Of a stretch of 64,000 bases of DNA, positions 59,702 through 63,643 are shown in pieces. The stretch covers positions 1 to 64,000 of the forward strand of contig MIBJ01000056.1 in assembly GCA_001829495.1 (NCBI GenBank), in the 5' to 3' direction. How positions within the stretch are numbered: position 1 is the first letter of the stretch; every line of letters begins with the position of its first letter. Both the position numbers and the translations under genes were made by a program. Source of the DNA: Spirochaetes bacterium RBG_16_49_21. GTDB lineage: Bacteria > Spirochaetota > UBA4802 > UBA5550. Below the pieces are notes generated by a model. That model was given only the letters and a program-made list of their open reading frames with translations. It searched no databases and was not told the origin of the DNA.

Positions 59702-60316
59702 ATGAAACACGTTGCCGCACTAGCCGTACTCGGCATAATTTTATCATTCACCTTCTGCACTGAAGACAGCAACAATCCCCGGTTTATTCCCGGATACATA
59801 AGCCCGGGAGATTTCAGGCCTACGGGAGTTGCTAGAGAAAAGCAGTATCACTTTAATCATGCTTCATTCGATCAGGATTGCGGCCCCGCCACTCTCCCGC
59901 CTGATGATCCCGGCCTTCCTGGTGGCCAAGAATGCGCGGCAGTGTATGGCAACTGGTTCACCGCCGAAGAAAACATATATGCCGAGGGAATTGCGGTCAA
60001 TGACCGGCACCTGGCTACGCCGGTCTTCAGCATGAAGATCTTCAGGGCGATCGGATCGCCGTGGTGGTATGCCACTATTATCTTAAACGGCGCAAGCCAT
60101 TCCGGCGTCATCACTGACCCTGGAGCCATATCAGTAACAAGATTGAAAAGCCAAAATATTTACAGCCAGGATTTTACCACACCACAATACGGGTCTTTGA
60201 GCAGTTCAGGAGGAAATATAAATCTAACGGTTATTACCTTTAATAATAACATAGATATCGGCGGTGTAAGAATACAAGCCGGCGAAAAAATCGTCGCTCA
60301 AGATCATGCATTTTAA
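59702..60316 (+). CDS. Lipoprotein of unknown function
   Basis: A 204-residue lipoprotein with lipobox FTFC. The middle region has a Gly/Pro-rich segment PPDDPGLPGGQ and later VITDPGAISVTR. Its last strand, NNIDIGGVRIQAGEKIVAQD, is beta-type. No family recognised. Its stop overlaps the lytic transglycosylase start (TAATG), so the two genes are coupled and may act on the cell wall together. Confidence 0.6.
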   Translation: MKHVAALAVLGIILSFTFCTEDSNNPRFIPGYISPGDFRPTGVAREKQYHFNHASFDQDCGPATLPPDDPGLPGGQECAAVYGNWFTAEENIYAEGIAVNDRHLATPVFSMKIFRAIGSPWWYATIILNGASHSGVITDPGAISVTRLKSQNIYSQDFTTPQYGSLSSSGGNINLTVITFNNNIDIGGVRIQAGEKIVAQDHAF

Positions 60317-60963
60317 TGAATAATATCACCAACCCATCAATGCAATCTCCTTTGATGAAGGCATTGGTATTCGTACAAATTTTTCTATTGATTCTGTCCT
60401 ATCCCTGGCCCCTTCCGGCAAAGGTGCACAAGCGGGTACATAAGGACGGGTCAATCGAGTACTATAATACGAACGAGCCTGCTCGTAAATACAGCGGCGG
60501 GAGCGTATCCAGCAGATACGACGGCCTCATTGAAAAGGTGTGTACAAAGCACGGGGTTAACCCGCTTCTCGTGAAATGCATTATTAAGGTTGAATCGAAT
60601 TTCAATCCGGACGCGGTTTCAGTGGCAGGAGCCATGGGACTCATGCAGATCATGCAGGATACCGCAGACTATTACTCGCTCGAGAATCCCTTCAATCCTG
60701 AGCAGAACATCGCCACCGGCGTCAGGCACATCAAATCGTTGCTCGCCTATTTCAACAATGACGTGGAGCTCTCCCTTGCCGCCTACCACGCGGGCCTCGG
60801 CAGGGTGAAGAACCGCACCCTGCCGCCGATACGCGCCACCATCGATTACGTGAACAGCGTCATGCGCCTGTATACCGGCACGGCGGGCCAGGCCGAAAAT
60901 TCCGTCAGGCGTTTATACAAAAAAATCGAGCGCGACGGCACGATAGTAATCTATAGCCGATAG
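60316..60963 (+). CDS. Lytic transglycosylase (SLT family)
   Basis: A 215-residue protein with an N-terminal hydrophobic signal (ALVFVQIFLLILSYPWPLPA), a short DUF4124-like segment (HKRVHKDGSIEYYNT) and an SLT transglycosylase domain. The catalytic Glu93 is in IIKVESNFNP and the GLMQ motif is GAMGLMQIMQ; ATGVRHIKSLLAYF and AAYHAGLGRV complete the domain. It cleaves peptidoglycan. Such small secreted SLTs often accompany flagellar or pilus systems; fliG lies 50 bases downstream on the other strand. Confidence 0.9.
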   Translation: MNNITNPSMQSPLMKALVFVQIFLLILSYPWPLPAKVHKRVHKDGSIEYYNTNEPARKYSGGSVSSRYDGLIEKVCTKHGVNPLLVKCIIKVESNFNPDAVSVAGAMGLMQIMQDTADYYSLENPFNPEQNIATGVRHIKSLLAYFNNDVELSLAAYHAGLGRVKNRTLPPIRATIDYVNSVMRLYTGTAGQAENSVRRLYKKIERDGTIVIYSR

Positions 60964-61014: not shown

Positions 61015-62028
61015 CTATTTCACGTATATATCATCCCCCCGTTTCAGGGAAATCACCCCGTTTTCATCCAGGCTTTTCATGATCGACACGATTTGGCGGC
61101 GGCAATCCTCCACCTCGGAAAGCCTGACCGAACCCATGGCGTCCATGTCCATAAGCACATCGGTGGCCCTGTTCTGGCTCATGTTCCGCAAAAACTTGAA
61201 GCGCACGTCGTCGCCGGAGCCCTTGAGCGCCATGGCTATGAGGCGGTCGTCGCGGATCTCGTCTATGATTATCCGAATCTCGTTGTTCGTCAGGTACACG
61301 ATATTCTCAAAGGCGAAGGTCTTCTCCTGTATCTGCCGGGACACCTCCGGCAGGTTAATCTCAAGATCGCGCATGATCTTCCGCTCGTTCTCCGGGTCCA
61401 TGTGTCGCAGAATGTCCGTCAGGGTGTCCAGTCCGCCCGCGGACAGCCCCTGACTTTTTTTCTGATATTCCTTGTATCTCTTCTTAATCGTTTTGACGAT
61501 GCCCGCAACCGCGTCCGGCATCACCTTGTCCATCTTGGCCATGCGGAGCACGACCTCCTTCACGGTTTCAGGGCCGAGCGCTTTCAGTATCGCCGCCGAC
61601 TTCTCGGGAGGAAGAAATGACAAGGCGACCGCTATGGTCTGCGGGTGCTCGTCTTTAAGAAAGGATACGAGCGCCTCATCCCCGATCTCGGCGAGAGACG
61701 TGAATTCCTTGTCGACATCGATAGGAGACAACTTTTCAAGTATCCGCTCTGCTTTTTCCTTGCCAAAGGTCTTGGTCAGTATCTCCTTGGCTGCGCCCTC
61801 CCCGCCTTTGAGCCTCCGCTTTTCCTTCTTTAAATCAATGAGAAACTCGCCGATGAGCTCCTCACGCCCCTGAGACGTCAGCTTCTCGATCTTCGCGATC
61901 TCCTGGGTCAATTTCTCTATGCTCTCCTCGTCCAGGTGCTTCATGATATCTGAAGCGATCCCCGGGCCGAGAGCAACCAGCAGGGCAGCCGCACGCTCGA
62001 CGCCGCTCATGTCAAATACGGATTTCAT
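61015..62028 (-). CDS. fliG: Flagellar motor switch protein FliG
   Basis: A 337-residue FliG of normal length. N-terminal domain GVERAAALLVALGPGIASDI; the middle EHPQ motif in DEHPQTIAVALSFLPPEK (about 124); C-terminal armadillo-like domain with AMALKGSGDDVRFKFLRNMS (about 266) and torque-helix charges (MDAMGSVRLSEVEDCRRQI). Its ATG at 62028 overlaps the stop of the RnfB-like gene as ATGA, so it is translated after that protein. No other flagellar genes lie within the window. Confidence 0.96.
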   Translation of the reverse strand: MKSVFDMSGVERAAALLVALGPGIASDIMKHLDEESIEKLTQEIAKIEKLTSQGREELIGEFLIDLKKEKRRLKGGEGAAKEILTKTFGKEKAERILEKLSPIDVDKEFTSLAEIGDEALVSFLKDEHPQTIAVALSFLPPEKSAAILKALGPETVKEVVLRMAKMDKVMPDAVAGIVKTIKKRYKEYQKKSQGLSAGGLDTLTDILRHMDPENERKIMRDLEINLPEVSRQIQEKTFAFENIVYLTNNEIRIIIDEIRDDRLIAMALKGSGDDVRFKFLRNMSQNRATDVLMDMDAMGSVRLSEVEDCRRQIVSIMKSLDENGVISLKRGDDIYVK

Positions 62029-62801
62029 ACCGGCGATTCAACCTTATTCGGCGCGGATTCACGGGGTTTTTGATCCCCTGATTCCTGAAATTTCATCGAT
62101 CTCACGATCGGATTGATGACCGGAACCGGGCACACGTACACGCACTGATGGCACTGGATGCACCGGTCGTAATTGATCCGGGCGAGAGAATTATCGACTT
62201 CTATCGCGAGCTCTATCCGCGACGGATCCCGGTCCGGATACTTTTCAGACAGCGCCTTCCGGCAGGCCTTTTCGCAGAGCCTGCAGGCAATGCAGCCGGC
62301 CGAGCACTCGAGCTTCATGACCGCCGATTTTTCCTCGTTATTGCACAGCGTATGCACGTCGTTTTGACGCGGCGCCAGGCCGATGATGTTCCGCGGGCAG
62401 GCCATCACGCACATGCCGCAGCCGGTGCACCGGTCGTAGTCGACGATGGGAAGCCCGTTGCCCCCCATATGGATGGCGTTGAATGAACAAGCACGGCCGC
62501 AGTCGCCGAATCCGAGACATCCGTACCGGCAGACCTTGAATCCGCCCATGACGCCGTTTGCCGCCGTGCACTGCCGAAGGCCGCTGTATAGGAACCGCAC
62601 CGCCGTCTCGGCAGTGCCACCCTGACAATGAACGCGGGCCGTGTTCGCGATCATGGCGGTCGGCGATTCCTGGCCCATGATCCGGGGGTCCGGGACTACC
62701 CGAAGCTTTATCATCGCTATGGAGAGAAAGAGGCCGAAAGCCGCTCCAAGGAGCGTTACCGCGGCAATGGAAGCTATTGAGGGGAATATGATATCAAGCA
62801 T
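62025..62801 (-). CDS. RnfB-like ferredoxin protein lacking the CGxCG domain
   Basis: A 258-residue protein with one N-terminal TM helix (IIFPSIASIAAVTLLGAAFG), then VHCQGGTAETAVRFLYSGL, CRYGCLGFGDCGRAC, CTGCGMCVMACPRNI, CIACRLCEKAC and CIQCHQCVYVCP. These [4Fe-4S] sites and the sequence CLGFGDC are signs of RnfB, the ferredoxin-type subunit of the Rnf complex. Normal RnfB has an extra Fe-S domain with CGxCGxPGC between TM and HCQGG; here only about 30 residues link them, so that domain is missing. No rnfCDGEA genes are nearby. The start (62801) has GGAAAC upstream. Coupled to fliG. Confidence 0.82.
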   Translation of the reverse strand: MLDIIFPSIASIAAVTLLGAAFGLFLSIAMIKLRVVPDPRIMGQESPTAMIANTARVHCQGGTAETAVRFLYSGLRQCTAANGVMGGFKVCRYGCLGFGDCGRACSFNAIHMGGNGLPIVDYDRCTGCGMCVMACPRNIIGLAPRQNDVHTLCNNEEKSAVMKLECSAGCIACRLCEKACRKALSEKYPDRDPSRIELAIEVDNSLARINYDRCIQCHQCVYVCPVPVINPIVRSMKFQESGDQKPRESAPNKVESPV

Positions 62802-62986: not shown

Positions 62987-63643
62987 ATGCTAAAAAAAAA
63001 TTTCGACGCAGCCTACCAGACGGAGATAATAACGGCGATAAAGAACAGAAGCGATCTTGTGTTTATCACCTATTCCGGACTGGAAAACACCGAGGAAAAA
63101 ATAAAATACGCCCTGGCGAAGATTCTGGAAAAATTCAGAAGGGAGGAAATCTTCACGCCCCTCCTCTCCTGCATCAAGGAATTAATAGCGAACGCGGCAA
63201 AGGCCAATGCGAAAATGATCCTCATAAGCGAGGGGAAGATAACGAACCCCGATGATCCGGCTCATGTCGTGAAACAGATACAGAGCGTCTTGAACGAGGA
63301 GGGTCTCCTCGAGTACGGAATAAAAGCCAAGCAGCACAAGCTCTCGACGCGGACATATCTAAAAACACACAACAACAACCTGATCATCGAGGTGGTAAAC
63401 AACGTCCCCCTCTCGGCCAAGGAGCTGAAGAGGATTTCCGAAAGAATCGACGTCTCCTCAAAATACGACAGTATCGCCGAGTTTTATATGGAAAATCCCG
63501 ACCCTGAAGCCGAGGGAATGGGCCTGGGCCTTTCCATGGTCGTGGTCTTGCTCAAGAACATCAATATATCCCATAAGAATTTCATGGTAACCACGGATGG
63601 GAAGGTGAAGACCTACGCCACCATCCTGGTCCCGCTTGCTTAA
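62987..63643 (+). CDS. Stand-alone GHKL (HATPase-like) protein
   Basis: A 218-residue protein consisting of one ATPase-like domain. N-box: LLSCIKELIANAAKANAKMI (about 58). G-box: EAEGMGLGLSMVVVLLKNI (about 174). Both are clearly related to the N-terminal domain of the HDOD protein at 26500-27999 (there the same two motifs read VLRELIQNAVKANMKRVY and GAGLGIIMSVMLLKNAG). It has no phospho-acceptor or sensor domain, as in anti-sigma kinases of the RsbW type. AGGTGA lies before the ATG. It ends by sharing TTAA with the convergent radical SAM gene. Confidence 0.83.
   Translation: MLKKNFDAAYQTEIITAIKNRSDLVFITYSGLENTEEKIKYALAKILEKFRREEIFTPLLSCIKELIANAAKANAKMILISEGKITNPDDPAHVVKQIQSVLNEEGLLEYGIKAKQHKLSTRTYLKTHNNNLIIEVVNNVPLSAKELKRISERIDVSSKYDSIAEFYMENPDPEAEGMGLGLSMVVVLLKNINISHKNFMVTTDGKVKTYATILVPLA

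Follow-up and report, generated by a model that had tools for sequence, protein, structure and literature searches.

A displaced RnfB without its FdI domain beside a fliG paralogue in a Spirochaetota genome, probably a subunit of the main Rnf complex

Why a gene for an RnfB-type protein should lie directly before a copy of fliG, and what such a protein could do without one of its Fe-S domains, are the questions raised by the locus in Table 1. The locus is part of the window, the 64,000-nucleotide stretch of contig MIBJ01000056.1 that was analysed here. The first-pass annotation had described the protein as having the transmembrane (TM) helix and ferredoxin motifs of RnfB but lacking the CGxCG domain, and its gene as detached from any rnf operon and joined to fliG by an ATGA overlap. 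These four observations are confirmed by the analysis, while the link that had been suggested between a membrane redox protein and the flagellar motor is not.

Table 1. Coordinates of the features at the fliG-linked rnfB locus (positions in the window)
Feature	Position	Strand	Description
rnfB	62025..62801	-	258 aa; start ATG at 62801; lacks the FdI (CGxCG, PF04060) domain
N-terminal TM helix of RnfB	62706..62765	-	approx. residues 13-32; from hydropathy
FdII-III region of RnfB	62097..62630	-	20 conserved cysteines, from which five [4Fe-4S] motifs are expected
Deletion junction	62679..62684	-	CGG/ATC (R40/I41); 51 codons (153 nt) missing; from codon alignment
fliG paralogue	61015..62028	-	337 aa; extra copy, outside the fliF-G-H-I set; ATGA overlap with rnfB
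Lytic transglycosylase (SLT) gene	60316..60963	+	beyond fliG; PF01464, 92.3 bits; neighbour kept in many relatives
Divergent conserved neighbour	62987..63643	+	218 aa; without Pfam match; adjoins fliG whether rnfB is there or not

Evidence for the TM helix comes from a hydropathy peak of 2.24 at residues 13-31, which aligns with that of the relatives, the five ferredoxin motifs are present, and the closest solved structures are RnfB chains (9eri_B and 7zc6_B). The curated RnfB model TIGR01944 gives the protein 33.1 bits and its cutoff of 68.7 bits is missed because of the deletion described below; the two intact orthologues tested score 105.7 and 85.2, both above the cutoff. No match to PF04060 (FeS), the model for the CGxCG domain, is found in the 258-aa protein even at E 10, and the RnfB of an intact congener matches this model with 46 bits. 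Judged from its sequence, the protein is an RnfB by descent, and an incomplete one. The TM helix and the polyferredoxin region FdII-III are common to this protein and to the RnfB of the RnfABCDGE complexes of C. tetanomorphum (7zc6) and A. woodii (9eri), but in contrast to these it has no FdI (B8), and it is encoded away from the rnf operon, in front of a copy of fliG.

Alignment with the 27 other complete orthologues at the same locus shows that exactly 51 residues are absent between DPR and IMG, a loss of 153 nt that is in frame, domain-sized and cleanly joined. The orthologues share with the 258-aa RnfB the locus, the neighbours and 20 cluster cysteines, but FdI with its four cysteines is present in 27/27 of them and absent from the protein of the window. 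Of 24 conserved cysteines, the latter thus keeps 20, comprising all 20 outside FdI, whereas 4/4 within FdI are gone; because the loss affects every one of the four invariant cysteines of the stretch and none of the 20 elsewhere, the missing domain is not a matter of chance. Furthermore, since FdI is intact in the other orthologues, the shortening is specific to the window's genome and no feature of the locus, so that the idea of a shortened RnfB conserved among relatives does not hold. The RnfB of Thermotoga maritima is shortened too, but in the opposite way, as it is reported to comprise the FdI part only (PMC9588780). Judged from the sequence of the relatives, the ends of the deletion share few bases.

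No separate FdI gene adjoins rnfB. Three other PF04060 proteins are encoded in the genome, none of them beside rnfB: a CODH/ACS gamma-like protein, a protein encoded next to CooC-like ATPase genes and a fusion of RnfB with a GltD-like oxidoreductase. The cofactor residues of RnfA, RnfE and RnfG are all present, and the Rnf proteins of this genome show no clear acceleration of evolution, as would be expected if the loss is recent, if the change is tolerated or if the single MAG contains an error. A flavinylation defect of RnfD (TRATPL) was considered and dropped, as the position varies in intact relatives.

The other rnf genes of the genome lie on different contigs. The main operon on contig C62 has the order rnfC-rnfD-rnfG-rnfE-rnfA with no rnfB beside it, and a second, divergent rnf operon on C65 has its own RnfB, the fusion with the GltD-like oxidoreductase; the sole non-fusion RnfB found in the genome is the product of the fliG-linked gene. 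The divergent operon (L042:2372-13000) is made up of a cytochrome c3-like gene, rnfC-D-G-E-A and the gene for the 680-aa fusion, 3' of which lie NuoE/NuoF-like and formate-dehydrogenase- or hydrogenase-like genes. Two MAGs of Desulfobacterota (L009, L011) encode fusions resembling the RnfB::GltD-like protein. Near the end of the main operon lies a convergent cheX gene (L043:9417-9884; also at the corresponding place in most of L089-L100), as it does in many genomes of the window's family. An rnfCDGEA-type operon without rnfB, as on C62, also figures in the proposed origin of NQR (PMC4014512, PMC12174285), for which the loss of rnfB from such an operon is the proposed first step (PMC4014512). 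The present case differs in that rnfB is present at another locus and in that no NqrF-type replacement electron input scores above the cutoff in the genome.

The 46 genomes of the order that were available were all searched. In 30 of them rnfB lies directly before fliG (28 complete genes and contig-edge pieces in G010 and G026), and the pair is thus conserved in related genomes. The piece in G010 adjoins the 218-aa neighbour; G026 was rejected as a genome without rnfB, since the 3' end of the gene lies before fliG at a contig edge. In the displaced arrangement, rnfB is flanked by the 218-aa gene on one side and by a second copy of fliG on the other, and it overlaps or nearly abuts the latter. 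As far as the contigs show, all 30 genomes have an rnf operon without B, and in many, such as G002-G004, the fliG-linked RnfB is the single one. In 11 other genomes fliG stands beside the same 218-aa gene and rnfB is absent there. In six of these (G006, G009, G013, G018, G019 and G020) rnfB stands last in the rnf operon, and the other five are without an intact RnfA/E pair, with no RnfA/E match in G008, G014, G027 and G036 and a degenerate RnfA only in G033. Outside both counts are G001, which is intermediate, and G031, G044, G017 and G038, where loci are broken or missing or completeness is low.

A Fisher test comparing 27 genomes with 11 gives 8e-10, the genomes being related and the counts not independent; by family and genus labels, about five lineages are without a fliG-linked rnfB. 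The tree distances of RnfB correlate with those of RnfCDEA at 0.92 and with those of FliG at 0.87, which is weak evidence as all genes share the species tree, and the partial r is 0.67 with RnfCDEA versus 0.32 with FliG. RnfB tracks the Rnf complex and not FliG, because fliG stays where rnfB is operonic or where Rnf is lost or reduced. This complementary distribution of genes suggests that the fliG-linked RnfB belongs to the main Rnf complex. In a separate observation, RnfE of the order's operonic-rnfB type and of G047 is without its second [2Fe-2S] cysteine, with LVVVFAIILARA or similar and not LIVVNCIILGRA (rnfE genes of L075, L077, L078, L079 and L073).

The product of the linked fliG scores 254.8 bits against TIGR00207 (cutoff 226.7), with FliG_N, FliG_M and FliG_C all found, and the canonical fliG of the genome lies on C21 in a fliF-G-H-I-like set. 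A partial search of the literature found no earlier description of rnfB paired with fliG. As an oddity of gene order the pairing is real and conserved, and it is explained as a displaced Rnf subunit; what joins the two genes would be location and probably expression, not motor function.

What the deletion may mean for the complex can be gauged from the known Rnf structures. In C. tetanomorphum, FdI lies between the TM helix and FdII-III, where it is mounted on flexible linkers, and it has been proposed to carry electrons to the RnfA/E iron site (PMC9588780). The B8 domain of A. woodii, which corresponds to FdI, approaches the RnfA/E [2Fe-2S] cluster, and in B8 cysteine mutants ferredoxin:NAD+ activity is abolished and there is no growth on H2+CO2 (PMC11889175). 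By this route, known from solved complexes, electrons from ferredoxin would pass in the intact relatives to the FdII-III clusters of RnfB, on to the mobile FdI and from there to the [2Fe-2S] cluster of RnfA/E. The 153-bp in-frame deletion in the window's genome takes out exactly FdI, and the remaining RnfB could keep its anchoring by the TM helix and its binding to RnfC. Without FdI, electrons should not reach RnfA/E, and ferredoxin-driven pumping by the complex should stop. The pump is probably broken in this genome because the domain through which electrons enter the membrane is lost; the deletion is most likely a loss-of-function step, after which Rnf would no longer couple ferredoxin oxidation to pumping.

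Reduced forms of Rnf are also found in relatives. The congener G001 has an rnf operon that lacks rnfG, and its RnfA/E evolve faster. Its rnfB (contig C22, L123:5498-5755) is gutted to an 85-aa frame with 11 N inside, with the start and the fliG overlap kept. A decay shared by the two congeners was considered, but trees put them on separate branches and two events are more likely; from the sequences, the deletion in the window's genome and the losses in G001 look like separate events. Remnants in which rnfC and rnfD are kept after loss of the rest occur in L095, L107, L113 and L116 (G008, G027, G033 and G036); that of G033 additionally has a degenerate rnfA with Cys25 lost, and the contig of G036 breaks off within rnfD. 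The order thus looks to hold stages of Rnf loss, from a displaced B with the full set, through a B without FdI and the loss of G and most of B, to C and D only. In a distant family of the same phylum, G301 has a second RnfB that is also without FdI (L177:5449-6132, 227 aa). Like the 258-aa protein it has a TM helix joined to the ferredoxin part, but unlike it, it is encoded in an rnfCDGEAB operon with cluster-free RnfA/E. In this six-gene operon, the second rnf operon of G301 (its contig C65, L177:1211-6132), RnfA and RnfE have none of the four [2Fe-2S] cysteines, SGAT of RnfG and the cluster cysteines of RnfC are retained, and the operon encodes an Rnf paralogue without the transmembrane wire.

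Taken together, we favour, with a probability of about 0.72, the reading that the gene encodes the displaced RnfB of the main Rnf complex, that the deletion of FdI most likely disables the pump, that Rnf has been reduced or lost several times in the order, and that the link with fliG is locational. Against a disabled pump stands the lack of acceleration in Rnf and the full retention of cofactor residues, which would be unexpected for a long-dead complex. The same lack of relaxation would suit an error in a single MAG, by assembly or strain mixture, in which case the real RnfB of the species would be full-length and only its displaced locus unusual. The species is represented by one genome, and the 11-N gap at the same locus in G001 indicates that the locus can assemble badly; however, the deletion has a clean junction, corresponds to a domain in size and keeps the frame exactly, and the bases common to the deletion ends are too few for an assembly-graph collapse, which makes such an error rather unlikely.

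Unlikely as well is a functional RnfB without FdI, served by an FdI in trans (e.g. that of the RnfB::GltD-like protein of the divergent operon) or by another electron route. The 20 other cluster cysteines and the cofactor residues of RnfA, RnfE and RnfG are kept, the Rnf proteins are not accelerated, three PF04060 proteins are encoded elsewhere in the genome, and G301 retains another such RnfB in a six-gene operon, all of which would agree with a working protein. However, all solved Rnf complexes have FdI tethered within the RnfB chain itself (PMC9588780, PMC12174285), no NqrF-type input is found above the cutoff, and the operon of G301 is no working equivalent, as its RnfA/E cluster cysteines are lost too. 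A wider version, in which Rnf without FdI or wire (the window's genome and G301, and G008, G027 and perhaps G036, where little besides rnfC and rnfD is left) would form a retained, repurposed class with no ferredoxin-driven pumping and another membrane or flavin function, is quite doubtful. It is very improbable that RnfB works together with FliG in the flagellar motor as its redox or ion-linked partner: the two genes stay paired and tightly overlapping across the order, but 11 genomes keep fliG at the locus without rnfB, and in these either rnfB is operonic or Rnf is reduced, so that the presence of rnfB follows rnf and not fliG, and the linked fliG is an extra copy. FliG is, moreover, a cytoplasmic protein and is not known to contact RnfB.

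For the order as a whole, the displaced RnfB of the main Rnf complex means that rnfB can follow the Rnf complex in its distribution even when placed apart from the operon, and that a link to the motor need not be read into its position beside fliG. Given the origin proposed for NQR (PMC4014512), the genomes of the order with a reduced Rnf may serve as test cases for an rnf core without electron input.
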